64,000 bases of DNA, taken from Cupriavidus sp. D39. GTDB taxonomy: Bacteria > Pseudomonadota > Gammaproteobacteria > Burkholderiales > Burkholderiaceae. Made by a program: the position numbers and the translations under genes. Positions within the stretch are counted from its first letter, which is position 1. Each line of letters opens with the position of its first letter. The notes beneath the pieces were generated by a model, which was given only the letters and a program-made list of their open reading frames with translations, had not been told where the DNA came from and did not search any database. Shown one piece after another: positions 1 through 31,126 of the stretch. The stretch covers positions 1 through 64,000 of the forward strand of contig NZ_JAPNLE010000009.1 in the NCBI RefSeq assembly GCF_026627925.1. The letters run 5' to 3'.

Positions 1-467
1 GCCCACCACTTCGCCGGCTTGCCGGATGGGCCATACTGGAAGGGCGTGAAGACCTCGCCCATATTGCCTTTCTCGCGCAGGAATCCCCAGGGTTTGACAT
101 CCACTGCAGGTACGATGAACAGGGTCCAGACTTCCGCAGGGGTGCAGACAGCCGGCGCCCCTTCCGTGACAAGGATCACGCGATGGAAGGTGTCACCGGT
201 CAGGAAATTGCACCAGCGCACCTTGCGCATTTGAGCGTATTGGCGGGTCGCCTCCCAGTACCAGCCGAGTAGCACCAGCGACAGCGCCCAGCGCCACGGG
301 TGGTCGTGCAGGCCGCGATCGGGATCCGATCCGACGAAGCGATGCAGGTAGACGCGGATCCCGAACAGCGCGCAAACGAAGTAGCGCTCGAGGTAGGGTC
401 TGCCTTCCTCGCAGATGATCTTGACTGGCCGGCGAGCGGAATAGGCGAGCAGCAGGCGGCGGATCAT
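1..467 (-). CDS. Phage cupin-like protein, partial (runs off window edge)
   Basis: Reading frame open from an ATG at 467 to the window edge, so the C-terminus is missing. The visible 155 residues include LHDHPWRWALSLVLLGWYWE around residues 52-71, a His-X-His arrangement like the metal-binding strand of small cupins seen in phage genomes, and a second His in DTFHRVILV. The start overlaps the stop of the upstream 101-aa gene (ATGA at 467-464), which supports translation. No function can be assigned beyond a possible cupin fold. Confidence 0.7.
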   Translation of the reverse strand, partial: MIRRLLLAYSARRPVKIICEEGRPYLERYFVCALFGIRVYLHRFVGSDPDRGLHDHPWRWALSLVLLGWYWEATRQYAQMRKVRWCNFLTGDTFHRVILVTEGAPAVCTPAEVWTLFIVPAVDVKPWGFLREKGNMGEVFTPFQYGPSGKPAKWW

Positions 468-769
468 GCGAAGTGTCTCCCGTGGAGTTGGTCCAGCTTG
501 TCGACCTGGGCGCCAGTGAGCTGAGTCACCTTGCCGGTCTGCTGCGCCTCTACCAGCGAGCGAACGAATGACTGCTCCCAGTCGGTAAGATCTCGCGTAT
601 CGAGCATTCCCTCGAGCCGCTTGATCATGGTGGTGGTGCTAACGAGCATGCGGCTCTCCTTTGTGGTTGCTTGGGCCTCGAACCAGCGCACGTGCGCACG
701 GGCTGCAAGTACCATGGCGCCAACGAAGACGGCAGCCATGGCAAGCGGGGTGACCATCAGCCAGTTCAT
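464..769 (-). CDS. Small membrane-anchored phage protein, unknown function
   Basis: 101 residues. An N-terminal hydrophobic helix (about residues 4-24, VTPLAMAAVFVGAMVLAARA) is followed by a charged helical tail, as in a single-pass inner-membrane protein with a cytoplasmic coil. Its ATG overlaps the stop of the reverse transcriptase gene (769-766) and its stop overlaps the next gene, so it is translationally coupled within the leftward operon directly after the DGR. Not recognised as a family. Whether it belongs to the DGR or is simply the next phage gene is unknown. Confidence 0.7.
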   Translation of the reverse strand: MNWLMVTPLAMAAVFVGAMVLAARAHVRWFEAQATTKESRMLVSTTTMIKRLEGMLDTRDLTDWEQSFVRSLVEAQQTGKVTQLTGAQVDKLDQLHGRHFA

Positions 770-1962
770 GCCAGCTCCATCCGTGGCTGGTCCGCGGCGC
801 GGCGATAGGCCTTGGTGAGGTCGAAGTTCACGGCATGGCCGCGGCTGCGCACGATGTTTGCCAGCCGGGCGCGGTCTGTGTGGCTTCCCGTAGCCTGGCG
901 CAGCAAGCCGAAATAGCTGTTGGCGGAGGCATGGACATCGTCGGCATCCATTTGCTGCAGCCGCCTGGCACCTTCATTGACGGTGCGAGCCCGCGTAGTG
1001 CGCACCCACGGTCGGATGACCTGGCCGACGAAGTCGACGCCGCGGGAGATGGGCTGCAGGATCGTCTTGGCCGGATTGAGCCTGGCGCCCAGCTCGCGTG
1101 GCAAGAACGCCTCGATGTCATCATGGGCGGTGTTCAGCCATTGCGGCGATTCGTGCAGAAGCAGGAAGTCGTCCACGTATCGGATGTAATGCCTGCAGCG
1201 AACCTGATGCTTCGCATACTGGTCCAGTGCATCGAGATAGACGTTGGCGAAGAACTGGGACGAAAGGTTGCCGATCGGCAGCCCGCGATGCTTGGGCTGA
1301 TTCATGAGGCTCTTATGCGGCGGCACCAGCGCCATCAGCTCGGGCGGCGACTGCATCTGCACGCCAGGGCGTGGGTCATGCATCAGCACCAGGTCGGTCA
1401 ACCGCATCCACCACGGCTCGGTGACACGGGCAGCAAGCTGGGCGCGCAGGACGCGTTTGTCGATGCTGACGAAGAAGTTCGCAAGGTCGCATTTTAAGTA
1501 CCATGCCGGCCGTACCCAATTCTGCGTAATGCTGCGCACTTTGGCTTCGAGCCGGCGAGCAGCATACAGCGTGCCCCGGCCGGGGATGCAGGCGCAACTG
1601 TCGGCGATGAATGATGCATAGAACCGCGGGGAGATGCGGTTGTAGAGCAGGTGGTGCACGACGCGGTCGCGGAAGTCCGCAGCCCACACCTCCCGCGCCT
1701 TCGGGCGGGTGACCACGAAGCAGATCGAACGCCCGGGCTTGTAGCTGCCGTCCGCGAGCTCGTCGGCAAGCTGGCACAGGTTCCGCTCGAGGTGTTGCTC
1801 GAAGGCGAGGGCATTGTGAGTGTTGCGTTTGTTCTTGCGGCAGTCGAAGTACGCGACTACCAGGTCTTCGAAGGAGAAGCCAGCAGGCTCCGCATCGGTT
1901 TGATCTGCGGACGGCGCGGGCGCGAAACTCGTTGTTCTTGTGGTTGTTGTTCTGGTTGCCAT
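766..1962 (-). CDS. rt: DGR reverse transcriptase
   Basis: Group-II-like/DGR reverse transcriptase that would copy the TR RNA into mutagenised cDNA with Avd. Visible palm motifs: FRDRVVHHLL; motif A CDLANFFVSID; GLPIGNLSSQ, the DGR-type (I/L)GxxxSQ signature; catalytic YVDD; and the thumb-side SRGVDFVGQVI. It is the last component of the order targets-avd-TR-RT, the order of Bordetella phage BPP-1. The frame is open to an ATG at 2220, inside avd, and reads through the TR in a different frame from the target proteins. The first recognisable RT residues (SFEDLVVAYFDCRK) lie just after the TR. The ATG at 1962, inside the TR, is the nearest in-frame ATG and is used here; the true start is uncertain. 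YVDD replaces the more usual YMDD. The gene has no visible lesion. Confidence 0.93.
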   Translation of the reverse strand: MATRTTTTRTTSFAPAPSADQTDAEPAGFSFEDLVVAYFDCRKNKRNTHNALAFEQHLERNLCQLADELADGSYKPGRSICFVVTRPKAREVWAADFRDRVVHHLLYNRISPRFYASFIADSCACIPGRGTLYAARRLEAKVRSITQNWVRPAWYLKCDLANFFVSIDKRVLRAQLAARVTEPWWMRLTDLVLMHDPRPGVQMQSPPELMALVPPHKSLMNQPKHRGLPIGNLSSQFFANVYLDALDQYAKHQVRCRHYIRYVDDFLLLHESPQWLNTAHDDIEAFLPRELGARLNPAKTILQPISRGVDFVGQVIRPWVRTTRARTVNEGARRLQQMDADDVHASANSYFGLLRQATGSHTDRARLANIVRSRGHAVNFDLTKAYRRAADQPRMELA

Positions 1963-2011
1963 CGTTGAAGTTCTGATTCCACGCGTTGTTAGAGTTGCCC
2001 GCGTACTGCGT
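1903..2011 (-). repeat. DGR template repeat (TR)
   Basis: 109-bp near-copy of the 3' ends of the three target genes, lying between avd and the RT core on the same strand. Read in the target frame it would encode twelve Asn codons (eleven AAC and one AAT) where the targets are variable, flanked by constant QYAG and NEFRARAVRR. Aligned to VR1, VR2 and VR3, every difference sits at a T on the plus strand (A on the coding strand). The GC-rich 3' end (1903-1930) is identical in all copies and corresponds to the initiation-of-mutagenic-homing region. The spacer 2012-2182 between avd and TR has no gene of its own and probably belongs to the TR RNA. Confidence 0.95.
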
Positions 2012-2182
2012 CTATTCGTGCTATCTACGTCGCCTCGCCGAAGGCCTGAGCCGATCAGCGGGGAAACTGCGCCAGACCAGACCTGGTGACTCCCAGCGGT
2101 ATCTGTGGTGCGCATGGCGGTGGCCTTGTGAGCCAGCGGCACGACCAGATTAAAAATCGCACGGGCATGACCGCCTTGACGG

Positions 2183-2536
2183 TTATGCAACAGGCGACGA
2201 TGCGGACCTTCGCCATCCATTGGCTTGCTTCCCGATGCTGTTGGTGAGCAATACAGTCTTTGCGTACTGAGGCTTCGAGATGAGGCGCTTATCCACGGAC
2301 AGGCGCAACAGAAGCTCGGCCACCTGCAGGCGCTCGATCAGGTCCATGAGATGCGGAGCCTTCTCGCGTGCCGTGTTCGCCCGAAATATCAGGACAGTGA
2401 TCTTCACGCACTCATCACGGATGGTTCCGCCAATCGATGCCTTGTAGTCGCGGGGCATGTTTTTGGTGAGGTCCGTGACGGCGTCGAGCAGGTCGTACGC
2501 CACCTTGTAGATCGGGAGACTGGTATGGATGGCCAT
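2183..2536 (-). CDS. avd: DGR accessory variability determinant
   Basis: 117 residues, predicted all-helical. The N-terminus MAIHTSLPIYKVAYDLLDAV, then NMPRDYKASIGGTIRDECVK and ELLLRLSVDKRLIS, match the four-helix Avd/23S-rRNA-intervening-protein family (compare the IYK...L and P...R features). In characterised DGRs Avd forms a pentamer that binds the RT and TR RNA and is needed for mutagenic cDNA synthesis. It lies between the last target and the TR, as in BPP-1. No strong ribosome-binding site precedes the ATG at 2536, so it may rely on coupling to the upstream target gene, which ends 17 nt earlier. Confidence 0.9.
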   Translation of the reverse strand: MAIHTSLPIYKVAYDLLDAVTDLTKNMPRDYKASIGGTIRDECVKITVLIFRANTAREKAPHLMDLIERLQVAELLLRLSVDKRLISKPQYAKTVLLTNSIGKQANGWRRSASSPVA

Positions 2537-2553
2537 GCTGAATTACTGAATAA

Positions 2554-3027
2554 TCAAAGGACTAATCTGCGGACGGCGCGGGCGCGAAACTCGTAGCTCT
2601 TGCGGCCGTAGTACTGGGCGCCAACGCTGAAGTTCTGAAGCCACGCGTAGTTAGAGGGGCCCGCGTACTGCTCGCCGGACCAGTACCAGGCAGACTCGAA
2701 CTCCTCCTTGAGGTTGGCGAAGAGCAGCGACTGTTCGCGACGCGTGGGCAGCTCGCCGCCGGCGGCAGCTGCCCATTCCTTGGCCTGTTCCCAGGTGACG
2801 TCCTCGGCTGAGTCCGGCAGCAAGATCAGGTGGTGATCCGGCGCTCCATCCTTGCCAAGGATCAGGCCAGCATAGAGCTCGCCGGCAGCAAGGGCGGGGC
2901 GGTTTGCCGGCGGCGCCACGACGGGCGCTGCGATGCTGTCCAGGAACGCTCTCGCGATCGCCTTGACCGGCATCGTCACCTGGGCATCGCCAAGAGGGAA
3001 CGTCACGTTTTCTGCGACTTGTATCAT
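2554..3027 (-). CDS. DGR target protein 1 (DUF1566/C-type-lectin-like), carries VR1
   Basis: 157 residues from the ATG at 3027, which has GGAG 9 nt upstream; a GTG five codons earlier is an alternative. The N-terminal part is identical to target 2. A DUF1566/formylglycine-like fold is suggested by DVTWEQAKEWAAAAGGELPTR and AWYWSGEQYAG. The C-terminal 35 residues are the variable region: the template residues N-S-N-N become P-S-N-Y, and so on. The protein ends in RRLVL rather than the RRLLVIQ of the other two. There is no signal peptide or membrane segment, so it is a small soluble ligand-binding candidate whose surface is diversified. Confidence 0.92.
   Translation of the reverse strand: MIQVAENVTFPLGDAQVTMPVKAIARAFLDSIAAPVVAPPANRPALAAGELYAGLILGKDGAPDHHLILLPDSAEDVTWEQAKEWAAAAGGELPTRREQSLLFANLKEEFESAWYWSGEQYAGPSNYAWLQNFSVGAQYYGRKSYEFRARAVRRLVL
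2565..2671 (-). repeat. DGR variable repeat VR1
   Basis: 107 bp aligned without gaps to TR 1903-2009, with 16 differences, all at TR adenines (coding strand). The invariant GC-rich end is retained. Unlike VR2 and VR3 it is not followed by the GCAA-loop hairpin; avd starts shortly downstream. It may therefore be a poorer or inactive homing target, although it is the most diverged copy. Confidence 0.93.
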
Positions 3028-3058
3028 TGCTGTGCACTCCACTGAATGGGGAATGGGA

Positions 3059-3074
3059 GGCCGCTTGCGCGGCC
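3059..3074 (-). promoter_or_regulatory. Hairpin downstream of VR2 (DGR target-recognition candidate)
   Basis: Stem GGCCGC/GCGGCC (3059-3064 with 3069-3074), loop TTGC on plus and GCAA on minus, a GNRA-type tetraloop on the coding strand. It begins about 32 nt after the 3' end of VR2. BPP-1-type DGRs need a short stem with a GRNA loop just downstream of the VR for homing. Six base pairs is slightly shorter than usual. It could equally be a weak terminator, but no T-run follows. Confidence 0.7.
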
Positions 3075-3088
3075 ATTAAATGGATGAA

Positions 3089-3568
3089 TTACTGAATGAC
3101 CAACAATCTGCGGACGGCGCGGGCGCGAAACTCGTTGAGCTTGTGGTAGTTGCCCTGGCTGCCACCGAGGAAGTGCTGACCCCACGCGTTGGTAGAGGTG
3201 CCCGCGTACTGCTCGCCGGACCAGTACCAGGCAGACTCGAACTCCTCCTTGAGGTTGGCGAAGAGCAGCGACTGTTCGCGACGCGTGGGCAGCTCGCCGC
3301 CGGCGGCAGCTGCCCATTCCTTGGCCTGTTCCCAGGTGACGTCCTCGGCTGAGTCCGGCAGCAAGATCAGGTGGTGATCCGGCGCTCCATCCTTGCCAAG
3401 GATCAGGCCAGCATAGAGCTCGCCGGCAGCAAGGGCGGGGCGGTTTGCCGGCGGCGCCACGACGGGCGCTGCGATGCTGTCCAGGAACGCTCTCGCGATC
3501 GCCTTGACCGGCATCGTCACCTGGGCATCGCCAAGAGGGAACGTCACGTTTTCTGCGACTTGTATCAT
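3089..3568 (-). CDS. DGR target protein 2 (DUF1566/C-type-lectin-like), carries VR2
   Basis: 159 residues from the ATG at 3568 (GGAG 9 nt upstream). Identical to target 1 from the start through EQYAG. It then carries its own variable segment (TSTNAWGQHFLGGSQGNYHK) and ends NEFRARAVRRLLVIQ. A shared leader of about 60 bp, containing the hairpin, separates it from the gene upstream. Together with target 1 it offers two independently mutated binding surfaces on one scaffold. Confidence 0.92.
   Translation of the reverse strand: MIQVAENVTFPLGDAQVTMPVKAIARAFLDSIAAPVVAPPANRPALAAGELYAGLILGKDGAPDHHLILLPDSAEDVTWEQAKEWAAAAGGELPTRREQSLLFANLKEEFESAWYWSGEQYAGTSTNAWGQHFLGGSQGNYHKLNEFRARAVRRLLVIQ
3106..3212 (-). 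repeat. DGR variable repeat VR2
   Basis: 107 bp aligned without gaps to TR 1903-2009. Fourteen substitutions, all at TR adenines on the coding strand, including one in the Asp codon (GAT to GGT). Followed by the hairpin at 3059-3074. Confidence 0.93.
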
Positions 3569-3599
3569 TGCTGTGCACTCCACTGAATGGGGAATGGGA

Positions 3600-3615
3600 G
3601 GCCGCTTGCGCGGCC
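3600..3615 (-). promoter_or_regulatory. Hairpin downstream of VR3 (DGR target-recognition candidate)
   Basis: Second copy of the GGCCGC/GCGGCC stem (3600-3605 with 3610-3615) and GCAA loop on the coding strand, 31 nt after the 3' end of VR3 and 32 nt before the start of target 2. It is part of the 541-bp duplication. Confidence 0.7.
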
Positions 3616-3629
3616 ATTAAATGGATGAA

Positions 3630-4286
3630 TTACTGAATGACCAACAATCTGCGGACGGCGCGGGCGCGAAACTCGTTGCTCTTGTGGAGGTGGTTCTGGC
3701 CGCCATCGTCGAAGCCCTGACCCCACGCGTGGCTAGAGCTGCCCGCGTACTGCGTTGACGTCCAATACCAGGCCTCTTCGAATGCTTCCGCACCGCCAGC
3801 CTGAAACGCGGCCGCGCTGGTCTGTGCGGGCGATTTCTCGGTGTAGGGGTAGCCCACGGGCACGCTGCTAGGGTTCTCGCCATCGCGGAAGCCGGCGTAG
3901 TTGCCTGCGGTCGGCTTGAGGTTGCGATAGATGATCTCCGCCTCATCTCGCGCCGGCAGCCGCCAGTCGTGGTAGCCGTTGATCTGCAGGCCGAGCGCCC
4001 ACTTGGCCAGATCGCTGCCGGCTTCGGCCATGGCAACGGTGTTAGCCGCGCCGTCGAAGTAGCTGAGCGCGCCCTCAACGCGGCTGCGGTCGCTGTTCCA
4101 GACGATGTCGTCATGCTCGCCACCGTCCTTCGGTGCGACGACCAGGGCATAGATTTCTTCGCCCTGGCGGATCTGGCCTGCGTAGAAACCACCGCCGAGC
4201 GGATCGCCGGCAACAAGGGCAGCGACGGCTGCTTGGGTGATCGTGTTGCGCACTGCGCTTGCTTCAACTGCTGTGACTGCGTTCAT
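3630..4286 (-). CDS. DGR target protein 3 (DUF1566 domain), carries VR3
   Basis: 218 residues from the ATG at 4286, preceded by AGGAC. A longer relative of targets 1 and 2: N-terminal segment MNAVTAVEASAVRNTITQAA, a GGGFYAGQI strand, then the DUF1566 core (WALGLQINGYHDWRLPARDE, about residues 107-126), EEAWYWTSTQYAG, the variable region, and the constant NEFRARAVRRLLVIQ. A longer upstream reading frame exists but overlaps the preceding gene out of frame and is unlikely. It is first in the DGR cassette and probably the original target, with the shorter pair derived from a related scaffold. Confidence 0.9.
   Translation of the reverse strand: MNAVTAVEASAVRNTITQAAVAALVAGDPLGGGFYAGQIRQGEEIYALVVAPKDGGEHDDIVWNSDRSRVEGALSYFDGAANTVAMAEAGSDLAKWALGLQINGYHDWRLPARDEAEIIYRNLKPTAGNYAGFRDGENPSSVPVGYPYTEKSPAQTSAAAFQAGGAEAFEEAWYWTSTQYAGSSSHAWGQGFDDGGQNHLHKSNEFRARAVRRLLVIQ
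3647..3755 (-). repeat. DGR variable repeat VR3
   Basis: 109 bp aligned without gaps to TR 1903-2011. Fourteen substitutions, all at TR adenines on the coding strand. Homology also extends two bases further at the 5' side (QYAG codons), making VR3 the copy most like the TR at its edges. Confidence 0.94.
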
Positions 4287-4317
4287 GGTCTGTCCTCGTT
4301 GTTGAGTGGGTGCTGCG

Positions 4318-4629
4318 TTACGCGGCTTCTGCCAGCGGGAAGAGGGTGGGTTGTTCCGGATCGCCATCGATGAGATGGCCATTGATGTCCGACATGACGT
4401 GCACGCCGTCATAGCGAACCCACTGAATCCGGGTTTCGCCATTCGGACCCGCGCCGCGGAAGAGGCGGACCGGCTGCGCTGAAATCCGCTCGCGGTCATA
4501 CTCATCGACGCCGGCCTTTGTCAGTGGTACCGCCTCCTTCATGAAGGCGATCTCTAATTGGTCCATCTTCGCTACGTCGCCTCTTCGTGCTGCCTTGGCA
4601 GCCTGGCGCTTGATGTCGTCGATATTCAC
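4318..4629 (-). CDS. Phage protein of unknown function with possible clamp-binding motif
   Basis: 103 residues from a GTG at 4629 preceded by GAGG. Helical N-terminus (MNIDDIKRQAAKAARRGDVA), then a strand-rich region with RIQWVRYDG. The C-terminus contains EQPTLFPL. QPTLF fits the loose QxxLF pattern of bacterial sliding-clamp binding peptides, and the gene lies 13 bp downstream of the phage clamp gene. That link is inference. It sits between the clamp and the DGR targets in the same operon. Confidence 0.75.
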   Translation of the reverse strand: MNIDDIKRQAAKAARRGDVAKMDQLEIAFMKEAVPLTKAGVDEYDRERISAQPVRLFRGAGPNGETRIQWVRYDGVHVMSDINGHLIDGDPEQPTLFPLAEAA

Positions 4630-4642
4630 GGTGATTCCTCGG

Positions 4643-5713
4643 TTACATGCGGAGAGGTGCCAGCAGCCCGCGCCAGCTGCCGTCTTGAAGGAGATAGGCG
4701 CTGGGCGTATCGCCATCTGCCCACGAGATCAGAACATTCTCGGTCTTCACCTGACCGAGCAGGCGCAGCAGGCTCGGGCCGTCGAAGGAGCCTTCCAGGT
4801 GGGACTCCTCGCCACGCTCCTTGATCTCGAGCTCGGCATCGACGGCCTGATTTCCATCAGTGATGTTGATCGAGCAGACGTCATAGTCCTGCTCAAAGCG
4901 GATGACGCCCTTGATGTCGAAAAGTCGATGCAGTGGGCAGATCTGCAGTAGGGCCTCTCGGTTGAAAGAGACGTGCTGTTTGGGGACGGGAAGTGCGCGG
5001 CGCCATTCCATATACTTGGCGGGTGGGCGATTGCACACGACCTTCACGCCCGCGCGTCGCCCCACGATGTAGCGCTCAAAGATCTGGAAGTCCTCGACGC
5101 CGACGGATGCGAATAGCTCCGCTGCCTCGGCAGAGATGGGGACGCCGAACTCACCAGTGGCAATTGGAAGGCAGTTCGAGGCGAGCATGGCGCCATTCGA
5201 GGCAGTCACATGGATGGCGGCACCATCAGACTCAACCCACAGATTCCGCAAATATGGTCGCGCGTGCTCTTTGGGGCCAGCAACCGCGAAGGCGACCGTC
5301 GGGATAAGTGCAGTCAGGCCGGGGGCCGAGAACGTTGCAGCGGGGGTGCCCTCGATTTTCACTTCGGGATAACCAGCGCCAGGGATGGTGGGAAGGGTGA
5401 GGCGGCAAGAGCCGGCGCGGGCAATGACCTTGGAGTCCTTCTTGCTGAAGATCACCGAAGGGGCGCCGATGCTGGCGACGGCCTGAAGTTTGTCCGCAGG
5501 CAGGCACACATCCACGTCATCTGGGCCGATGCTGGCCGGCACTGTCGCAATGACAGTCAAGGAGAGGTCGGAGCCGGTCACGGCAAGGGTGGTGCCGCCG
5601 GCTTCTCCCTGAAGGCGGAGATGCGTAAGGATGTCAATGGGCGAGCGGGCGGCGGCAGCTTGCCCTGCGATCTTGAGCGCTTCGCTCAGTCTGTTTCCAG
5701 CAATGGAGAGCAT
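4643..5713 (-). CDS. dnaN: Phage-encoded DNA polymerase III beta sliding clamp
   Basis: 356 residues, close to the 366-370 of chromosomal DnaN, with the three-domain layout. Visible family features: LSIAGNRLSEALKIAGQA (domain 1), LPTIPGAGYPEV, ARPYLRNLWVE at the domain 1-2 link, and the C-terminal LLAPLRM that parallels the VMPMRL tail forming the partner-binding pocket. It would load on DNA as a ring and tether polymerase and repair enzymes. A phage copy may redirect the host replisome. Same leftward operon as the DGR, two genes upstream of target 3. Confidence 0.9.
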   Translation of the reverse strand: MLSIAGNRLSEALKIAGQAAAARSPIDILTHLRLQGEAGGTTLAVTGSDLSLTVIATVPASIGPDDVDVCLPADKLQAVASIGAPSVIFSKKDSKVIARAGSCRLTLPTIPGAGYPEVKIEGTPAATFSAPGLTALIPTVAFAVAGPKEHARPYLRNLWVESDGAAIHVTASNGAMLASNCLPIATGEFGVPISAEAAELFASVGVEDFQIFERYIVGRRAGVKVVCNRPPAKYMEWRRALPVPKQHVSFNREALLQICPLHRLFDIKGVIRFEQDYDVCSINITDGNQAVDAELEIKERGEESHLEGSFDGPSLLRLLGQVKTENVLISWADGDTPSAYLLQDGSWRGLLAPLRM

Positions 5714-5714
5714 C

Positions 5715-5954
5715 TCACTTTCCGTTCGGTGTATCCGCTGCAGCGGCGAGCTGGTCGCGAAGGATGGTCAGGCCGGCGAGCGCGTCTTGCGCCGCCTGGG
5801 TGAAGTACTTGCCGTGCTCGATGGCTGCGTCGATGGCACGAGCCATGTCCTGCGGCGTGGCATAGGCCGGGGGCTTTGCCGGCGCCAGACGCGAGCGCTC
5901 CATAAGCGCTAGGTTCGCGGCCATCGTGCGGGCACGGAAGTCGGGGAGGCTCAT
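5715..5954 (-). CDS. Small helical phage protein, unknown
   Basis: 79 residues, helix-rich (MSLPDFRARTMAANLALMER... DMARAIDAAIEHGKYFTQAA). Its ATG overlaps the preceding stop (ATGA at 5954-5951), and the clamp ATG follows its stop by one base, so all three are coupled. No family recognised. Confidence 0.65.
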   Translation of the reverse strand: MSLPDFRARTMAANLALMERSRLAPAKPPAYATPQDMARAIDAAIEHGKYFTQAAQDALAGLTILRDQLAAAADTPNGK

Positions 5955-6328
5955 GGTCTGTTATCTATTCCACAGTGCACGCAGGGGCCTGCATAGCGCA
6001 CCTGCTCGTTCATGAATCGCCCGCAACCGGCGCAGTTGGTGATTTCGTGGCTGGGCTTCCGGGGCTTTTGCAAGACGATCTCGGTACCGGCCAGCGCCTC
6101 GGTGCGGTTGATGTATTGCATGTCGACGGCAGGGCGGACCTTGGCATCGATGTACGCCTTGGGCCAGGGGATGTCCGTGGCGCGGAAGTCATGCTTGGCC
6201 TGGGCTTCCTCCTTCGAGTAGACCGCGGCTTTGCGCAGGTCTGTGGTGTAGCCCGCGCCATCGGGGCACCACCACAGCACGTCATTGCCGACATAGCTGC
6301 GGCTGTCCTGTAGGTAGTAGTCGGTCAT
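5951..6328 (-). CDS. Phage zinc-ribbon-like protein, unknown
   Basis: 125 residues from the ATG at 6328, which overlaps the upstream stop; an ATG four codons earlier is possible. The C-terminus has CAGCGRFMNEQ...CVHCG, two CxxC pairs consistent with a small zinc ribbon. The central part (SKEEAQAKHDFRATDIPWPKAYI) resembles phage proteins that pair a short beta domain with a zinc knuckle. Role unknown. Confidence 0.7.
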   Translation of the reverse strand: MTDYYLQDSRSYVGNDVLWWCPDGAGYTTDLRKAAVYSKEEAQAKHDFRATDIPWPKAYIDAKVRPAVDMQYINRTEALAGTEIVLQKPRKPSHEITNCAGCGRFMNEQVRYAGPCVHCGIDNRP

Positions 6329-6870
6329 GCTGCGCTCCACTCACGCTTTACCTGCTGGTGGGTCTTCTCCACGGCCTTCAGAGCGGCTTTGTAGCTGGCC
6401 TTCGCCTCCTTCTTGGTCGGGAACCATCCGCCTTCTACGTCGCGGTTATAGTCGCTCCCGCTCACGCGCCGGAACATGCGGTATTCCGTGCCGTACTCGC
6501 CAGTCGGGCTATTCCAGCCGGTCTGTTCGAACTCAGGCAGGCGCGCGCCGCACAGGAACTCGCCGAACGACTCCATGCAGTCCGCGTGCAGGTACTGCTC
6601 ATACCGGCTGCGCTTCCGCGGCGTCGGCAGCGATGCGATGGCCAGCGCTTTGCCCGCTTCGGTCACGCGGAACACGGTGTCGTCCTCGTGCAGGAAGCCG
6701 GGCCGGCGGGCGCGCTCCATCAGGTGCATGTCGCAGAGTTGCAGCAGGTACGGCATGTCCGAGTGCCCAGGGCTCGCGACGAAGTGGTTTCGATACGGCT
6801 CGCGCTGGAACTGGCTCACGCCAATCGTGTGTTGCAGCAGACTGATCTGGTAAGAGCTTGGCGCGATCAT
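6325..6870 (-). CDS. Phage hypothetical protein
   Basis: 181 residues. The N-terminal half (ISLLQHTIGVSQFQREPYRNHF, then DMPYLLQLCDMHLMERARRPG, DTVFRVTEAGKALA) has the pattern of a winged-helix domain. The C-terminal half ends in a Lys-rich helix (TKKEAKASYKAALKAVEKTH). Coupled to both neighbours by ATGA overlaps. Possibly DNA-binding, by fold impression only. Confidence 0.7.
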   Translation of the reverse strand: MIAPSSYQISLLQHTIGVSQFQREPYRNHFVASPGHSDMPYLLQLCDMHLMERARRPGFLHEDDTVFRVTEAGKALAIASLPTPRKRSRYEQYLHADCMESFGEFLCGARLPEFEQTGWNSPTGEYGTEYRMFRRVSGSDYNRDVEGGWFPTKKEAKASYKAALKAVEKTHQQVKREWSAA

Positions 6871-7001
6871 GCTTGCTTCACCTGAACGTTACGGGCACCA
6901 CAGAGGGCGGCACGATTAAGAGCGCTGGCGTATGCATCCCACCAGGTCGGGAAGGGGCCGGTGTGGACAGGCTCGTGATTGATCAGGATCTGGAAGATCA
7001 C
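6867..7001 (-). CDS. Very small phage protein
   Basis: 44 residues from a GTG at 7001 with GGAGG five bases upstream (MIFQILINHEPVHTGPFPTW...). Start and stop each overlap the neighbouring genes (GTGA, ATGA), the main reason for accepting it. A longer in-frame reading exists but lacks support. Function unknown. Confidence 0.6.
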   Translation of the reverse strand: MIFQILINHEPVHTGPFPTWWDAYASALNRAALCGARNVQVKQA

Positions 7002-7162
7002 GATTGCCTCCACAGGACAGTGGCGGGCGACTCGGGATTCAGCGCCGCGTGCAGGCCCGCGAGGGCGATGGCGCCAACGGCGACCGCGAACCAGAACGCG
7101 ACGGCACGCACGGCGGATCGGAAGCGGACCACCCGACGGATCTGCTCGGTACGCCAGCTCAT
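6998..7162 (-). CDS. Small single-pass membrane protein
   Basis: 54 residues. A basic N-terminus (MSWRTEQIRRVVRFRSAVR) precedes a hydrophobic helix (AVAFWFAVAVGAIALAGLHA). Starts within the ATGA overlap of the upstream gene and ends in a GTGA overlap with the next. Unknown function; a phage inner-membrane peptide. Confidence 0.65.
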   Translation of the reverse strand: MSWRTEQIRRVVRFRSAVRAVAFWFAVAVGAIALAGLHAALNPESPATVLWRQS

Positions 7163-7347
7163 GCCGCGCTCCCGGTAGTGGCTTTGGCGATGGTGGCGCT
7201 GGCTTCTTGTCGGCAGAGCTCCAAATAGCCGGCATGTTCAGGCTTGGTGGTGCGAACAGCATCTTCCAGCTTGATCAGCGCCCCAAGCAACTCATGCTGC
7301 AGGTTGTCGTGTGCCGCCCGGCGCATTGCAGCTTGTTCGGCGGTCAT
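7159..7347 (-). CDS. Small helical phage protein
   Basis: 62 residues, helical and amphipathic (MTAEQAAMRRAAHDNLQHEL...). ATGA overlaps on both sides. No family recognised. Confidence 0.65.
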   Translation of the reverse strand: MTAEQAAMRRAAHDNLQHELLGALIKLEDAVRTTKPEHAGYLELCRQEASATIAKATTGSAA

Positions 7348-7796
7348 GCTGCAACCTCTTCAGTGTTTGCGGAGAGTGCCGCGGCGGCTTCGCTTTCAGC
7401 TTGTGCCAGCTTCTCGGCATCGATCACCACGCTGATGGTCAGCCGACCCTTCTTGAAGCGGACACTGCCGAGCCGGTGCTCACTACGTTGAACGAGATTG
7501 AAGCCCGCGGTCAGCAAGGCGCGGCAAAGGCGGCGATCGCCTTCGAACACCGAACCCATGACGGACAGGGTCATCCGCTCCCGGTAGACGGGCCTGACGG
7601 CATCGCCATGGATGGTGTAGCCGGCCGCCTTGATCGCTCCGTGCTCGAGTTCGAGCAGCGCCAGGGCGGCAGCCATGTCCTTGAGTTCCTGGGTGCGTGC
7701 ACGATTGCCGCGCTCATGCAGGGCCAGCGCCTGCTGACGCAGGGGCATCGCCAGGATCTGATCGTAGGTCGGGTGCCTCACCATCTCGCTCTCCAT
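7344..7796 (-). CDS. First gene of the leftward operon, unknown function
   Basis: 150 residues. An ATG at 7784 with GGAG seven bases upstream is a good alternative start. Helix (LRQQALALHERGNRARTQELKDMAAAL) followed by a mixed domain. It is the first gene after the operator-covered promoter at 7831-7869 and so heads the operon that ends with the DGR. Not recognised. Confidence 0.7.
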   Translation of the reverse strand: MESEMVRHPTYDQILAMPLRQQALALHERGNRARTQELKDMAAALALLELEHGAIKAAGYTIHGDAVRPVYRERMTLSVMGSVFEGDRRLCRALLTAGFNLVQRSEHRLGSVRFKKGRLTISVVIDAEKLAQAESEAAAALSANTEEVAA

Positions 7797-7830
7797 CTAT
7801 CCGGCACCGGGTGGTGCGTCGTTGGGATCG

Positions 7831-7869
7831 ATTAAAGCATGCTTGATTGATAAATGCAAGAATGCTTTA
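7831..7869 (-). promoter_or_regulatory. Leftward promoter with overlapping operator pair (PL-like)
   Basis: On the minus strand TTGCAT (7859-7854), 17 bp, TTTAAT (7836-7831): a good sigma-70 promoter. It is overlapped by an inverted pair of 13-bp sites, 7833-7845 and 7857-7869, matching at 12 of 13 positions with core TAAAGCATNCTTG. The same core occurs three more times between the repressor and cro genes. A repressor bound here would block the leftward operon, including the clamp and DGR. Confidence 0.75.
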
Positions 7870-7910
7870 GAACACGGACGCGAAAATGTCGCTCCCCTCC
7901 TGGGTGCGTG

Positions 7911-8120
7911 CTAGTCGTCCAGCACTTCGCTAAGCACCCGGGTCATGGATTGGGCGGTGAAACGACGCGATGCCTTGAAGACGCCGTTGAGGTACCAAGC
8001 GAGGTCTCCGTTCCCGAGCATCAGAATGACGATGCTGTTTTCTTCCATCTTCCGTGGGCTAGTCCTTCGCTCCCGGCCTCGTTTTTTTCTATAGGCAACA
8101 AAATCCAGAATCTTCGCCAT
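7911..8120 (-). CDS. Small basic phage protein
   Basis: 69 residues, basic N-terminus (MAKILDFVAYRKKRGRERR) then a strand-rich stretch (NSIVILMLGNGDLAWYLNG). ATG at 8120 with GGATGGG upstream. It precedes the leftward promoter and is separate from the operon. A conserved-looking phage orphan of unknown role. Confidence 0.55.
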   Translation of the reverse strand: MAKILDFVAYRKKRGRERRTSPRKMEENSIVILMLGNGDLAWYLNGVFKASRRFTAQSMTRVLSEVLDD

Positions 8121-8283
8121 GCTGACCCATCCGGTTGCCGCCGGATGTGCCCCGGCGATCGATCCATCGAGCCAATGGGATAACTTTTAAGCGACCGCCA
8201 CAAAACCCTGCTTAAGCGGGATGCAGCGTTCTCTGCACAAAAGTGGCAGAGAAAACTGCCGGGGGTGGCAAAGGCGCATGGCA

Positions 8284-8309
8284 AAAAAAGCCCGCCGATG
8301 GCGGGTTTT
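8284..8309 (-). terminator. Rho-independent terminator of the repressor gene
   Basis: Stem CCCGCC/GGCGGG (8291-8296 with 8300-8305), loop GAT. Seven Ts follow on the minus strand (A-run at 8284-8289 on plus), so it ends leftward transcripts from the repressor gene. Four Ts on the plus side make it partly bidirectional. Confidence 0.8.
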
Positions 8310-8345
8310 GTCGGGGATTACGGTGACATGCAGATCGCGTTCACG

Positions 8346-8765
8346 CTATCCGCTATGGGTCTTCCGCTTCCCGCTGCTGATCAGTCCCTCCTGACGCGGG
8401 GTGCCCCACTCATCCTTCCGTTCAAGGCTCGCGCGCGTGTATTCCGAGACGATCCGGTCGAGCCCGGACTTCTGTGCCGAGCTCAACTGCTCGTATTCCT
8501 CCCGGCTCACGGAGAACGGCCAGGTTTGATCTGCCTCCTCCTTCGTCGACGCGAGAGACCCAGCCCCGGTGGCCAGCCAGAAGCTATCGACCCCCAGGAA
8601 TTTGGCGGCTCGCGCTGAGTTTTCTGCTGTGAGTGCCTTCGTTTTCCCAAGGAGGACTTGCGACACCGCCTGAACGCTAATGCCGATGTCGTCGGCCAGC
8701 TGCTGCCTGTCTTTGCCGGATGTTGTGAGGGCCTGCTCAAGGCGTTGGCCGTAGGTGCTTTTCAT
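8346..8765 (-). CDS. CI-like phage repressor (XRE HTH)
   Basis: 139 residues from the ATG at 8765. An N-terminal helix-turn-helix of the Xre/Cro family (RQQLADDIGISVQAVSQVLLGKTK, given in part) is followed by a short acidic C-terminal region; there is no LexA/S24 peptidase domain, so it is not a classical RecA-cleaved repressor. There is no obvious ribosome-binding site before the ATG, which may indicate a leaderless transcript as for lambda cI. Divergent from cro (8836) with operator-like sites between them. Probable lysogeny repressor. Confidence 0.85.
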   Translation of the reverse strand: MKSTYGQRLEQALTTSGKDRQQLADDIGISVQAVSQVLLGKTKALTAENSARAAKFLGVDSFWLATGAGSLASTKEEADQTWPFSVSREEYEQLSSAQKSGLDRIVSEYTRASLERKDEWGTPRQEGLISSGKRKTHSG

Positions 8766-8769
8766 GACG

Positions 8770-8828
8770 AAAGCATACTTACAAGCTCGTAAAGCATGGT
8801 TGCCTTCTGGTCTAAAGAATGCTTTAAT
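8770..8828 (+). promoter_or_regulatory. Operator cluster and rightward promoter (PR-like)
   Basis: Three copies of the TAAAGCAT-type site: 8770-8782, 8790-8802 and, inverted, about 8813-8825. A rightward promoter TTGCCT (8800-8805), 17 bp, TTTAAT (8823-8828) ends eight bases before the cro ATG, so the cro mRNA has almost no leader. Layout matches a CI/Cro switch with three operators. Confidence 0.75.
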
Positions 8829-8835
8829 TGAGCGC

Positions 8836-9045
8836 ATGGAAAAGTCCAAAGCCACAACCCTCCTTGGAGGGACGCCATCTTCAGCCGCCGAAGCGATCGG
8901 TATTTCGCCTCAAGCGTATTCGCAGTGGCCGCAGATCCTGCCGAGGCGGCTTGCTGATCGTGTCGTGGCGGCTATCGCACGGAAGCATCTTCCGGCCGCG
9001 CTCATTGGGAGTGAACTGTGCGTCGATCAGGCAGAGACGAAGTGA
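8836..9045 (+). CDS. Cro-like transcriptional regulator
   Basis: 69 residues (MEKSKATTLLGGTPSSAAEA...). The segment SSAAEAIGISPQAYSQWPQILPRR reads as a Cro/YdaS-type helix-turn-helix, with length typical of YdaS-like antirepressors. Divergent from the CI-like gene. It stops one base before the convergent gene 9046-9390. Confidence 0.8.
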   Translation: MEKSKATTLLGGTPSSAAEAIGISPQAYSQWPQILPRRLADRVVAAIARKHLPAALIGSELCVDQAETK

Positions 9046-14090: not shown

Positions 14091-14761
14091 CCGCTATCTG
14101 CTTCAAATGCGGCCATCCGCCGCACGATGGGTCCTGCGTGAATGTCGCGCCGCAGCAGCCCACCGCACAACCGTTCACCGTTGTAGCGGGAAAGATCGAA
14201 GGCGACGGCGAGCACAATTACAAGTACGTCGAATCGTTTGCGGATGTCATGGACGCCGTCCGCGCGCTGGATACCTGTAAGGGCTACCACTTCGCGGAGA
14301 TCGAGTACCGCGCCGCTCCCCCGGCACCTGTCAGCCGGGCGGAATTGGGTATCAGCGAGGAGGATCAGCGCGCGGCGGGCGAGGCAGTGCGAACCCATCC
14401 TGATTTGAAGCGCGCACTGGACGAGGACTTGGCGATGACTGCCGCAGTCATCGCAATCGACACCGTTGTCCGTCGCCACGCAGATCAGTCCGCTCCCAAT
14501 GAGGGTGGCAGCGAGCCGGTGGCGAATGGTTTGAGGGGTTGGAAGATTCAGCCGGATGAGGAGGGCTGGCGTGTCGTGTCTCCGAGCGGAGATGGATGCT
14601 ACCTGTGGGATGCCGATGCGCGCCACGGTCAGATAACCGGGACGGATATACGTAAAGTATTCCGTCAACTTTGTTCATCGCTCATATACGCCGCCCCCAG
14701 CCTGCCGCGATCGCATCGCAGGACGAAAAGAAGGGAGAGAGCCAATGAGCCGTATCCATGA
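14087..14761 (+). CDS. Phage hypothetical protein with N-terminal zinc knuckle
   Basis: 224 residues. ICFKCGHPPHDGSCVN at the start is a Cys/His knuckle. The middle has a ferredoxin-like strand-helix pattern (VESFADVMDAVRALDTCKGYHFAEIEYR, in part). The C-terminus includes WKIQPDEEGWRVVSP. The end overlaps the next gene by 17 bp. Function unknown. Confidence 0.6.
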   Translation: MTAICFKCGHPPHDGSCVNVAPQQPTAQPFTVVAGKIEGDGEHNYKYVESFADVMDAVRALDTCKGYHFAEIEYRAAPPAPVSRAELGISEEDQRAAGEAVRTHPDLKRALDEDLAMTAAVIAIDTVVRRHADQSAPNEGGSEPVANGLRGWKIQPDEEGWRVVSPSGDGCYLWDADARHGQITGTDIRKVFRQLCSSLIYAAPSLPRSHRRTKRRERANEPYP

Positions 14762-15005
14762 GTTGAAATGCAACCCCGTACCGTTCAACGATCTGCTGTC
14801 CGGGCAGAAGCGGGCCGAGGTGCGGAAGGATGACCGGGGATTCTGTGAGGGCGATATTCTCCGGCTCCGCGAGCACATTGCAGTGACGCCCCATACTTAC
14901 ACGGGGCGCGAGTTCACTGCAGAGATCACGCACATCCAGCGGGGCTACGGTCTGCCGGATGGGCTTGTCGTGCTTTCGATCAAGAAGGGAGAGAGCCATG
15001 AGTGA
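14745..15005 (+). CDS. DUF3850/ASCH-domain protein
   Basis: 86 residues: RIHELKCNPVPFNDLLSGQK (KCNPVPF...L.G.K), AEVRKDDRGFCEGDILRLRE and LPDGLVVLSI are the hallmarks of the ASCH-like DUF3850 fold found in many phages, proposed to bind RNA or modified nucleotides. Good full-length match. Confidence 0.85.
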   Translation: MSRIHELKCNPVPFNDLLSGQKRAEVRKDDRGFCEGDILRLREHIAVTPHTYTGREFTAEITHIQRGYGLPDGLVVLSIKKGESHE

Positions 15006-15135
15006 CACGAAACTGGATCTGGACGCGCTTGAACGCGAAGCAGAAGCCATGCGCTCATTTTCCGCGTGGCGAATCATCGCCCGCTTTGATCGCCCGCATT
15101 GGGGCGCTTACTTCAAGGAGGCCAGCCATGACTGA
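14998..15135 (+). CDS. Truncated paralogue of the 15704 gene
   Basis: 45 residues. The first 31 codons are almost identical at DNA level to the gene at 15704 (MSDTKLDLDALEREAEAMRS...). After IIAR the frame differs: TTTGATCG here against TTGATCG there, and the protein ends quickly. The start overlaps the DUF3850 gene and the stop overlaps the next gene, so it may still be translated. A decayed or shuffled duplicate. Confidence 0.5.
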   Translation: MSDTKLDLDALEREAEAMRSFSAWRIIARFDRPHWGAYFKEASHD

Positions 15136-15463
15136 GAGCGCAGAGCGGCTGGAGCGCGATGACGGCGCGGACGACGAGAGCGGCGCGTTGACCATTGAAT
15201 CCATCGAGCGGACAGCGGCTATCTGCTCAGAGTTCTTCGGGTCACGCTTGCGGTTCCTGATCGCCCGCATCCGCGAACTCGAAAGCCTCCCCGACACCCG
15301 CGCAATGGGGGCGAGCGCGCTGTCGGATGAAGTGCGCGATGCACTGCAATGGGCTGAAAAGACCATCGACATCCTTTGGGTCTCGCATCACGCGAATCGC
15401 GCTGACCAAGCCCTAGAGAGAATCCGCGCCATCCTCGCCGCATCGCAGGCCGACAAGTCATGA
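15128..15463 (+). CDS. Phage hypothetical protein (Lys/Arg/Glu helical)
   Basis: 111 residues starting MTESAERLERDDGADD. The segment FLIARIRELESLPDTRAMGASAL is shared, at DNA level too, with the 15704 gene (LIARIRELESRPDTRAMGASAV), evidence that these small genes are mosaics built from the same modules. Coiled-coil-like. Function unknown. Confidence 0.55.
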   Translation: MTESAERLERDDGADDESGALTIESIERTAAICSEFFGSRLRFLIARIRELESLPDTRAMGASALSDEVRDALQWAEKTIDILWVSHHANRADQALERIRAILAASQADKS

Positions 15464-15711
15464 GCGCGACATTTGAGGTAGGCCAGACGGTTGTATTGCG
15501 GCACGACATCATCGACCCGGCTGACGACTGCCATCCATCCTCGCTGTGCGGGAAGGGCGGCGATGAGGTTGTCATTCGCTATGCGTCCTCGTTCGGTGCT
15601 TTCGACTGGTACGTGTCGCACGCTCACCGAACTGACGCCGCTTTTGCGGTCACGAGCAATGAGATTGAGGCCGCATCGCAGGCCGAAAAGAAGGGAGAGG
15701 GCCATGAGTGA
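15460..15711 (+). CDS. Small beta-rich phage protein
   Basis: 83 residues: FEVGQTVVLRHDIIDPADDC, VVIRYASSFGAFDWYVSHAH suggest a small SH3-like barrel. ATGA overlap at its start, and its end overlaps the next ATG. Unknown. Confidence 0.55.
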   Translation: MSATFEVGQTVVLRHDIIDPADDCHPSSLCGKGGDEVVIRYASSFGAFDWYVSHAHRTDAAFAVTSNEIEAASQAEKKGEGHE

Positions 15712-16132
15712 CACGAAACTGGATTTGGACGCGCTGGAACGCGAGGCAGAAGCCATGCGCTCATTTTCCGCGTGGCGCATCATCGCCCGCTTGATCGCCC
15801 GCATTCGCGAATTGGAAAGCCGCCCCGACACCCGCGCAATGGGGGCGAGCGCGGTGACTGATGAGGTAATCCGTCAGGTGTTCATCGCCGCAGGAGAGCC
15901 GCGTCCGAAGCAGTGCCATATTGACGCTGCCCGCGCCCTCCTGGCCGCGCAGCCCAGCGAGGACAAGCGCTCCGAAGCCGTTTGCATCAAGGAACTTTTC
16001 GAGCGGCAAGCGGCCGGCTTTGCTCGCGCGTTCGAGGCGCTTGGTATCGACGCCGACGACGACAGAGAGCGCTCATGGTCGTCGCTAGTTCTCGCCATCC
16101 GCGCCGCAATCGCCAAAGGAGAGGGGAAGTGA
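15704..16132 (+). CDS. Phage hypothetical protein, full-length paralogue
   Basis: 142 residues, helical throughout (DALEREAEAMRSFSAWRIIA, then ARLIARIRELESRPDTRAMG). Contains modules shared with the two genes at 14998 and 15128, so this cluster arose by duplication and recombination. Stop overlaps the next GTG. Confidence 0.6.
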   Translation: MSDTKLDLDALEREAEAMRSFSAWRIIARLIARIRELESRPDTRAMGASAVTDEVIRQVFIAAGEPRPKQCHIDAARALLAAQPSEDKRSEAVCIKELFERQAAGFARAFEALGIDADDDRERSWSSLVLAIRAAIAKGEGK

Positions 16133-16266
16133 AAACCGTATTCGCCTATCTCGGCGTGTTCATCGTAGCTCTTGCCGTGGCAGGACAACTCGGCATCGGG
16201 CATTTCCGCCTCTACTACGGACCGCAGCCAATGGAGTGCAAACAAGGAGCCAATCATGCTGACTGA
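16129..16266 (+). CDS. Small membrane protein
   Basis: 45 residues from a GTG (MKTVFAYLGVFIVALAVAGQ, start read as Met) with one transmembrane segment, then LGIGHFRLYYGPQPMECKQG. GTGA overlap upstream, and its end overlaps the next ATG. Unknown. Confidence 0.55.
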   Translation: MKTVFAYLGVFIVALAVAGQLGIGHFRLYYGPQPMECKQGANHAD

Positions 16267-16591
16267 CAACGCAGAGCGGCTGGAGCGCGAGGAGTTTGAG
16301 GCGTGGTGGCGCGTTGACTGTCCATCTCCTGGGTCGGGCAGCAGACACGAAACCGGGATGTACAGAAGCTCCCACATGGAGTGGGCTTGGCGTGCGTGGC
16401 AAGCCGCACGCCGAGCGCCCGCAGCAGGGGCGCCGGAGTATAGCTACCCGACCGTGATTGACCGCAGCCACCCGAATCAAGGCTACGTGACTTACGGCTT
16501 CGCCACTGAGGAAGAATGCTCCCAGTTCATCAAGGCGACTCGACGTGGATCGCACCGCGCCGCTCCCGCAGCGCCCAAGGAGACGGTATGA
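16256..16591 (+). CDS. Phage hypothetical protein
   Basis: 111 residues: ERLEREEFEAWWRVDCPSPG followed by MEWAWRAWQAARR is the signature W-rich helix often present in phage and plasmid proteins of the same size (MEWAWxAW). ATG preceded by AAGGAG. Biochemical role unknown. Confidence 0.65.
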   Translation: MLTDNAERLEREEFEAWWRVDCPSPGSGSRHETGMYRSSHMEWAWRAWQAARRAPAAGAPEYSYPTVIDRSHPNQGYVTYGFATEEECSQFIKATRRGSHRAAPAAPKETV

Positions 16592-16862
16592 CCGCCATAT
16601 CCGACCGTGAAGCCGATGTGCTCGCCCTTGTACGCCAGGGGAAAGCCAACAAGGTGATCGCCCGCGAACTCGGCGTTTCCATCCACACCATCAAGACGCA
16701 CGTATCCAACATCATGCGCAAGCTCGGCGCTAGCAACCGTACGGAACTTGCAGTCATGGCCACTGCCGCGCGATCAATAGCGTCAGTTCTGGGCGTTTCC
16801 GGCGAGCAGGTCACACAAGACTGGGCGCGCACGAGCTACTCGAGCGCAAAGGGGGTGTATGA
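16588..16862 (+). CDS. LuxR/GerE-type HTH protein with a portal-derived tail
   Basis: Residues 1-62 are a complete GerE helix-turn-helix (ISDREADVLALVRQGKANKV, IARELGVSIHTIKTHVSNIM). Residues 62-88 match the phage portal protein (residues about 388-414 of the gene at 24520) at 19 of 27 positions, an unexpected fusion. As sequenced the frame has no stop and runs into the gene at 17026. One extra G in the G5 run 16851-16855 would end it in TGA at 16860-16862, overlapping the next ATG as the neighbours do; that end is used here. Likely DNA-binding regulator. Confidence 0.6.
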
Positions 16863-31112: not shown

Positions 31113-31126
31113 TTGGAGAACGCCAA

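Follow-up and report, generated by a model that had tools for sequence, protein, structure and literature searches.

In Bordetella phage BPP-1, a spacer RNA 3' of the template of its diversity-generating retroelement (DGR) recruits the complex of reverse transcriptase (RT) and accessory variability determinant (Avd) and primes complementary DNA (cDNA) synthesis, according to the excerpted accounts (PMC12875486; the role of the spacer is also treated in PMC8867640). In viruses of three DGR clades, tail proteins make up most of the targets, and 68% of DGR targets overall carry no annotation (Roux 2021, PMC8144416, in excerpt); elements have been described with two targets and with as many as eight (PMC10743442, in excerpt). 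Burkholderia phage Magia (MT701587) has been announced, in the part of the text at hand, as a likely myophage with a potential DGR and short target frames (PMC7883833). Here we describe a locus on the minus strand (766-4286) of the first 64,000 nucleotides of contig NZ_JAPNLE010000009.1 from Cupriavidus sp. D39, a stretch that we call the window. The locus is almost certainly a complete DGR, with RT, Avd, a template repeat (TR) and three target genes (T1 to T3), each of which ends in a variable repeat (VR1 to VR3).

The locus belongs to a large clade of temperate-phage DGRs. For this clade we propose, tentatively and at a probability that we would put at roughly 0.35, that a structured RNA 5' of TR, matching the Rfam family RT-15 (RF03018), replaces the 3' spacer as scaffold, and that early, non-virion targets provide hypervariable intracellular recognition rather than a switch of tropism. 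The broader statement that a prophage DGR diversifies three small C-lectin-type proteins, taking identity, recent activity and gene position jointly, appears likely from the sequence.

Identity of the retroelement

Read along the minus strand, the cassette runs T3, T2, T1, avd, TR and RT (Table 1). A preliminary description, made from the DNA letters, had recognised a complete element in the order of BPP-1. Pfam, PHROG and realignment agree on the RT, Avd, TR and three targets, and the gene order stands; the RNA layout does not, a structured RNA lying 5' of TR here.

The RT matches Pfam RVT_1 (E 1.3e-15) and the PHROG family 'Reverse transcriptase' (E 8e-120), and carries the motifs IGNLSSQ and YVDD. 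An IGxxxSQ-type motif, as opposed to QGxxxSP, is a criterion for DGR RTs. Among 20 rows of the clade, 19 have IGxxxSQ (L101 lacks it by the same rule) and all 20 have YVDD; of four other host RTs, three read QGxxxSP and the fourth has neither motif. A maximum-likelihood tree of 35 rows separates 31 DGR-type RTs, including BPP-1 and eight other phage or archaeal-virus DGR RTs, from the four host RTs at 100/100, its inner order being unsure because of the long branches of BPP-1, BacF2 and ANMV-1. The best match among solved structures is chain 8ub7 (E 1e-35), named 'Reverse transcriptase' and presumably the BPP-1 complex, ahead of group II RTs. Tree and motifs agree in placing the RT within the DGRs, and a position outside them did not come out. 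Avd is recognised by Pfam bAvd (50 bits against a cut-off of 40, E 4.8e-13) and by the PHROG family 'Avd protein of DGR' (E 4e-35); with NCBIfam DivGenRetAVD it scores 55 bits, under that model's cut-off of 80.

The TR and VRs were compared without gaps in the coding sense, in which 35-36 of the 107-109 TR positions are A. VR1 differs from TR at 16 of 107 positions (hypergeometric P 9e-10), VR2 at 14 of 107 (P 2e-8) and VR3 at 14 of 109 (P 2e-8), and all 44 differences fall on TR adenines. The counts first given by eye are exact on this realignment, and the fingerprint of adenine-specific mutagenic homing that had been read from them holds; substitution at non-adenine positions at a similar rate, named beforehand as the refuting pattern, was not seen. 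The replacing base is G in 22 cases, C in 12 and T in 10, and none of the 44 changes falls in codon position 3. When VR1 and VR2 are stretched to 109 bases, each gains two boundary differences, one of them at a non-A position, so the shorter boundaries originally drawn are the correct ones. The GC-rich 3' end of TR (1903-1932), which resembles an initiation of mutagenic homing (IMH) sequence, recurs without change in each of the VRs. An adenine-wildcard scan of both strands found no fourth VR in the window, the three VRs keeping 72-73 of 73 non-A bases and the next best stretch 39 of 73, and a BLAST search with the TR region found no copies beyond TR and the three VRs in the 7.74-Mb assembly, which is 97.84% complete.

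A structured RNA on the 5' side of the template

The space between the end of avd and TR, 171 nt in the window, is occupied by a match to RT-15 that covers the whole model (1-192 of 192) at 189.4 bits against a gathering threshold of 82 (E 3e-47). RF03022 (Phage_DGR) had no match at E up to 1 in positions 1-9000 of the window; in BPP-1 it lies at 2750-2882, 3' of TR and between TR and brt, and avd abuts TR. The mirrored spacing, in which 100-260 nt separate avd from TR and TR ends at most 60 nt from RT residue 30, recurs in 134 of the 139 non-redundant loci that have the needed marks, and these 134 loci are the base for the further clade-wide counts. An aligned RT codon lies 204-230 nt from the end of TR in 20 rows of the clade and 335-522 nt from it in eight other DGRs, values that are approximate because the aligned residue is not conserved. 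The avd-to-TR gap is 136-231 nt in the clade compared with 0-29 nt in six of eight other DGRs where it is readable; in this comparison L022 stands apart in layout (TR downstream of RT) and the avd value of ANMV-1 is not meaningful.

The predicted fold is borne out by covariation in 68 aligned spacers (94 had been chosen as diverse, 70 of them were listed and two of those left out). Of its 33 pairs, 20 show changes on both sides and 96.3% of cells are paired; both sides have changed in 155 cells, shuffling gives 32.6, and none of 500 shuffles reaches 155. Slid versions of the structure fall to 26-53% paired, a comparison that favours the unslid structure, since this very alignment was its source. 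Among 399 genomes of the order, nine have an RT-15 match over the cut-off, and under strict filters all nine matches adjoin a clade RT. The nine clade RTs in these genomes (61-100% identical) all have RT-15, and three diverged RTs (44-48%) have no match to it; three weak matches under the cut-off come from genomes without an RT match at E 1e-60. RT-15 is also present in all seven further clade loci scanned with Rfam and in L013. The same scan found no RT-15 in L021 and L022, and neither RT-15 nor RF03022 in eight other DGR phages; BalMu-1 matches RT-14. In this Bacillus phage (L191), RT-14 (2295-2438) starts at the end of the DGR TR (2178-2297), on its 3' side, and because of this adjacency a second 'RT-n' family, too, has the look of a DGR template RNA.

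The simplest reading, and the one that we infer, is that RT-15 does for the clade what the trailing spacer does for BPP-1, and on balance the comparison leans towards the 5' RNA being a functional template scaffold. A hidden 3' RNA element in the start of the RT coding region was also considered and set aside, the first 40 RT codons after TR showing no excess synonymous constraint (excess codon identity 0.081 and 0.073 in the two 20-codon bins that they form, for a mean of 0.062 and later bins up to 0.114). RT-15 as plain RT coding sequence was likewise considered, and the signs are mixed: the frame is open in 99 of the 134 loci, and among the 99 loci that have a conserved ATG, 24 have it out of phase with RT, which decides neither for coding nor for non-coding sequence. 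We found no paper with RT-15, RF03018 or RF03022 as its subject, nor an earlier description of a 5' RNA layout, in searches of an open-licence collection, most subscription journals lying outside that scope.

Extent of the clade

RT scans of genome contigs gave 133 relatives and those of viral contigs 345, and 80 of each were retained. A TR/VR pair with at least seven adenine mismatches is present in 166 of 173 RT-bearing loci, a partly redundant set in which some contigs were seen twice, and Avd lies upstream in 165 of the 166. There is one VR in 21 of these loci, two in 98, three in 41, four in 5 and five in 1, counts that are lower bounds because many loci are cut. Over 300 VRs in the 134 loci, 3751 of 3799 mismatches are at A, in runs selected for at most one non-A mismatch.

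A few records encountered in the scans deserve mention in their own right. L021 and L022 have DGR-like TR/VR pairs with TR downstream of RT, which is a different layout. The Shewanella phage QDWS (OK094664) and 'Hujiaoplasma phage zrk29-1' (OP650936) are both 47902 long and have equal RT scores, and are therefore probably a single phage entered twice, with hosts that are far apart. Three group II intron-like RT copies, equal in score and in identity to the query, lie in one contig of a single assembly (L006, L007 and L008).

Target proteins and their placement

In all three target genes the VR encodes the C-terminus. Lcl_C (PF07603), which we take to be the former DUF1566, passes the Pfam cut-off for T3 alone, T1 and T2 scoring under it; within an alignment of T1-type proteins, 23 of 28 members, T1 and T2 of the window among them, match Lcl_C at E up to 0.001. 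Among solved chains, none was matched by a profile of T3-type proteins. Targets across the clade are short (median 155 aa at the first VR rank, 198 aa at the second and 203 aa at the third), the VR is again C-terminal, and 337 of 356 resemble T1 or T3 at E 1e-5. This set of 356 includes redundant loci, and nine VRs were dropped from it (eight without a start, one with a stop in the VR). Judged by simple hydropathy and lipobox rules, with no trained predictor, the 356 include no signal-like sequence, no lipobox and one transmembrane-like segment, and secretion of the targets was set aside on this basis.

The setting of the targets was compared in four isolated phages, Magia, Cruim01, Haboob and QDWS, in each of which the DGR lies between repressor and integrase, amid recombination, nuclease or methyltransferase genes (the operon of QDWS runs across the start of its circular record). 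All 11 VRs of these phages, two in Haboob and three in each of the others, are in the repressor-to-integrase operon. The adenine-wildcard scan, applied to the whole records minus 447 bases of Haboob, found no VR among their structural genes, and in the window it found none among the tail genes. The DGR of LPPA56 lies upstream of a tyrosine recombinase, and L024 has methyltransferase-like and integrase-like open reading frames (ORFs) downstream, named by reading of the ORFs. A tyrosine recombinase ORF is found downstream of RT in 76 of the 102 loci with at least 3 kb there, 65 of them on the RT strand. By similar ORF reading, in the region 14458-18419 of Cupriavidus sp. IDO (L023) the recombinase-like ORF of the prophage is about 1.5 kb from a dusA-like gene, a possible integration site. 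The preliminary description had placed small targets away from the tail genes, which holds for the window; its further view, that the cassette is in an early leftward operon and that the targets are not the receptor-binding protein, gains support from the related phages.

Tail modules differ among the phages concerned. A sheath is annotated in Magia and a baseplate in QDWS; for Haboob and Cruim01 the annotation gives tape measure and tail genes, names neither sheath nor baseplate, and leaves many genes only as 'hypothetical'. PF04984 was found in 5 of 44 records and was abandoned as a marker of contractile tails, because it misses the annotated sheath of Magia and the count is a lower bound only. 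The DGR of the window belongs to a contractile-tailed prophage, as had been stated, with baseplate genes besides the tail sheath listed in Table 1. Since base 1 of the window is the first base of the contig, the left part of the prophage, any integrase included, is outside view.

Table 1 Features of the DGR and its surroundings in the window
Feature	Position	Strand	Remarks
T3, target 3	3630-4286	-	218 aa; predicted Lcl_C / C-lectin-type variable protein; PF07603 50.1 bits, over cut-off; PHROG_4245, E 3.7e-33
VR3	3647-3755	-	14 differences to TR, every one at a template A
T2, target 2	3089-3568	-	159 aa from ATG; GTG start possible at 3583; PF07603 E 1e-5, under cut-off (scanned from GTG)
VR2	3106-3212	-	14 differences to TR, every one at a template A
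T1, target 1	2554-3027	-	157 aa from ATG; GTG start possible at 3042; PF07603 E 3.9e-6, under cut-off (scanned from GTG)
VR1	2565-2671	-	16 differences to TR, every one at a template A
Tandem duplication, 541-bp unit	2672-3646		2672-3105 identical to 3213-3646
avd, accessory variability determinant	2183-2536	-	117 aa; bAvd, PHROG_3206
RT-15 structured RNA (Rfam RF03018)	2009-2199	-	5' of TR; closing helix ends at 2016, 4 nt before TR
TR	1903-2011	-	Template repeat
DGR RT	766-1962	-	398 aa from ATG inside TR; frame open to 2220; putative start
Stem-loop 3' of VR2	3059-3074	-	6-bp GC stem, GCAA loop
Stem-loop 3' of VR3	3600-3615	-	Same 6-bp stem and GCAA loop as after VR2
Repressor-like HTH protein	8346-8765	-	Same strand, upstream of the DGR; PHROG transcriptional repressor, E 1.1e-10
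Tail sheath	31108-32607	+	Same prophage (virion context); phrog_165, E 3.7e-182

Two further observations concern neighbouring genes. On the strand of the DGR, T3 is preceded by a small gene and, next upstream, by one (4643-5713) that resembles DNA polymerase III beta/sliding clamp (PHROG processivity factor, E 1.9e-35). The predicted genes at 14998-15135 and 15704-16132 have about 29 N-terminal amino acids in common, a partial local duplication.

Probable recent homing

T1 and T2 form a tandem duplication whose bodies outside the VR differ at 0 of 434 positions, and VR1 and VR2 differ at 20 of 107, all at TR adenines. Because identical bodies are joined to VRs that have diverged at template adenines only, homing would have been active recently; apart from mutagenic homing after the duplication, little else would readily account for the pattern, and it is very probable that the element has been active in the recent past. 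The pair may thus be read as an internal clock, the gene bodies identical and the VRs diverged. Tandem duplicates with at most 3% body difference make up 2 of 210 within-locus target pairs in the 134 loci, the second being in L056; in this count the window pair shows 22 VR differences, the frame used there extending beyond the end of TR, and 20 of 107 is the figure that applies.

Some pairs of closely related contigs show the same concentration of changes. Between L105 and L106, 14 of 20 differences over 2643 nt fall within one 111-nt VR. In L143 and L145, 19 of 41 differences over a main match of 2876 nt fall within one 110-nt VR, a second match of 278 nt adding 17 differences outside the VR. 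L149 and L159 are alike over 5514 nt except at one position, which belongs to a VR. All VR differences in these three pairs are at TR A.

Proposed mechanism

By homology to BPP-1, the RT-Avd complex would copy the TR RNA into cDNA with errors opposite adenines, and this cDNA would take the place of the VR in which a target gene ends, TR itself staying unchanged. Comparative anatomy suggests that the covarying RT-15 element 5' of TR may recruit RT-Avd and organise cDNA synthesis in place of the 3' spacer RNA of BPP-1. If a 5' scaffold does stand in for the 3' spacer, recruitment and priming of cDNA synthesis would follow a different, possibly retron-like, geometry. Judging from gene position, the targets would be expressed with the repressor-to-integrase operon, of recombination and lysogeny, rather than with the late structural genes. 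Rather than tail adhesins, we most readily see in them intracellular binding proteins that act early or in the prophage stage, in conflicts of phage with host or of phage with phage, and would put the chance of such a non-virion role a little short of even.

Alternative explanations

Several findings weigh against this reading, and they are best considered together with the explanations that they favour. RT-15 could be a regulatory leader for RT translation or transcription, with the site for RT-Avd elsewhere, for example in TR or in the RT coding sequence. A role in RT translation is possible because the RNA lies just upstream of the likely RT start, ending at TR with the likely start codon inside TR. 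The RT frame is moreover open through TR and RT-15 in the window, and from TR-100 in 99 of the 134 related loci (the other two frames in 0 and 3), so that the RT start may lie upstream of TR. A pairing of AAUCUGG in RT-15 with the 3' end of TR (CAGAU, in 109 of 134 loci) was examined and rejected, the 25 exceptions being without joint change. The 3' RNA with which RT-15 is compared rests on spacing in the remaining DGRs, because Rfam shows it only for BPP-1 (RF03022) and BalMu-1 (RT-14). A leader nonetheless fits poorly with an RT 5' end under no extra synonymous constraint and with the missing 3' spacer, which other DGRs have by the approximate distances given above, and we regard it as rather unlikely. 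The targets, for their part, could be accessory adhesins that travel with the virion or are set free when the host lyses, so that the DGR would switch host range as in BPP-1 and only the gene location would be unusual. This accords with the tail proteins that dominate known phage targets in three DGR clades (Roux 2021, PMC8144416, in excerpt). The DGRs of BPP-1, VHML, ACA1, FP_Lagaffe, phiARM81mr and ANMV-1 adjoin genes annotated as tail, Mtd-like or virion, and the targets of BPP-1, ACA1, FP_Lagaffe, ANMV-1 and phiARM81mr adjoin or are themselves named tail or virion genes; the annotations of VP58.5, BalMu-1 and F2 do not tell the target setting. A missing signal peptide suits virion proteins too, and for the Bacteroides F phages, which have the same spacing, a host-range role is proposed in the excerpted report (PMC8143477). 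Also to be set against our own reading are the 26 of 102 loci in which no tyrosine recombinase ORF was found downstream of RT, and a C-lectin fold of the targets that is suggested by Pfam Lcl_C. Against a virion adhesin speak the 11 of 11 VRs in the repressor-to-integrase operon, with none among the structural genes, and the presence of the same module in sheath-bearing phages (the window, Magia) and in ones without annotated sheath or baseplate (Haboob, Cruim01), and we hold this explanation, too, to be rather unlikely.

The copy could also be a relic of past adenine mutagenesis that is no longer homing. A BPP-1-type hairpin, defined by a stem of at least 6 bp and a 4-nt loop, follows VR2 and VR3 and is absent after VR1, and the 6-bp stems with GCAA loops that were found are outside the published consensus of a 7-10 bp stem and a GRNA loop (PMC3240598, in excerpt). 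Over the clade, such a hairpin follows 40 of 293 VRs compared with 33 of 1465 control stretches. Hypervariation of the VR is also seen in only two of the four contig pairs at 99 to <100% identity (L105/L106, L143/L145, L172/L181 and L039/L148): L172 and L181 differ at 13 of 5097 positions, none of them in any VR, and L039 and L148 differ by gaps alone, 23 bases in a VR and one base elsewhere. The 23-base gap could be an assembly collapse or a genuine deletion. Twenty-six pairs are 100% identical over the stretch that was compared, and L149/L159 is the only one of them to show a difference in a comparable VR, a single base; some of these pairs are one contig in two collections, and L039/L148 and others were not compared over every VR. 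A relic would have to accommodate open ORFs, an intact YVDD, and duplicate bodies that are identical while their VRs have diverged, and it is very improbable.

Comparison with known systems

The DGR of the window is less singular than it was first rated, because it has a large family, a near neighbour announced in Magia (PMC7883833, in excerpt) and a number of targets that other DGRs are known to share (PMC10743442, in excerpt). Magia resembles it in an RT that is 68.8% identical, in Avd, in a TR that overlaps the annotated RT 5' end, in a predicted myophage morphology, in the operon from repressor to integrase and in having two adjacent targets with a distant one. Its authors name two targets (genes 47 and 57), to which our scan adds a VR in gene 46, annotated as hypothetical, and the excerpted text of the announcement does not mention an RNA element (PMC7883833). 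The Bacteroides uniformis phages F1, F2 and F4 share DUF1566-type targets with the window, and differ in the host-range role proposed for theirs (PMC8143477, in excerpt). F2 (L192) is like the clade in its avd-to-TR gap of 128 nt and TR-to-RT distance of 238 nt, and its RT, 34% identical, groups next to the clade on a long branch; unlike the clade, it has no Rfam RT-15 match. From its spacing, the mirrored layout may reach Bacteroides phages.

Mechanistic detail on DGRs rests on BPP-1 (PMC12875486, in excerpt), and a widespread clade that leaves no room for a 3' spacer, yet has a covarying RNA on the opposite side of the template, would allow a direct test of which parts of that detail are general. 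In the same way, hypervariable proteins in a lysogeny and recombination operon, in phages whose tail modules differ, call into question the equation of phage DGRs with host attachment. The name and description of RF03018, as shown, hold no tie to DGR templates, whereas here the RNA lies directly 5' of TR. A retron, in the order msr-msd-RT, is like the window in placing structured RNA, template and RT in one transcript with the RT last (PMC8867640, in excerpt). The RT motifs, Avd and TR/VR homing of the window are those of a DGR, and there is no evidence here of retron-like priming. With BPP-1 the window shares the order target, avd, TR and RT on one strand, Avd, and an adenine-specific C-terminal VR. 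BPP-1 has avd abutting TR, RF03022 between TR and brt, and a tail target, whereas the window has RT-15 between avd and TR and targets away from the tail genes. We therefore class the element as a DGR and a new member of a family partly on record, and its clade as a variant in RNA layout and target placement. As a DGR it is ordinary; what makes it notable is how clearly it represents a clade that departs from the textbook picture in two respects.

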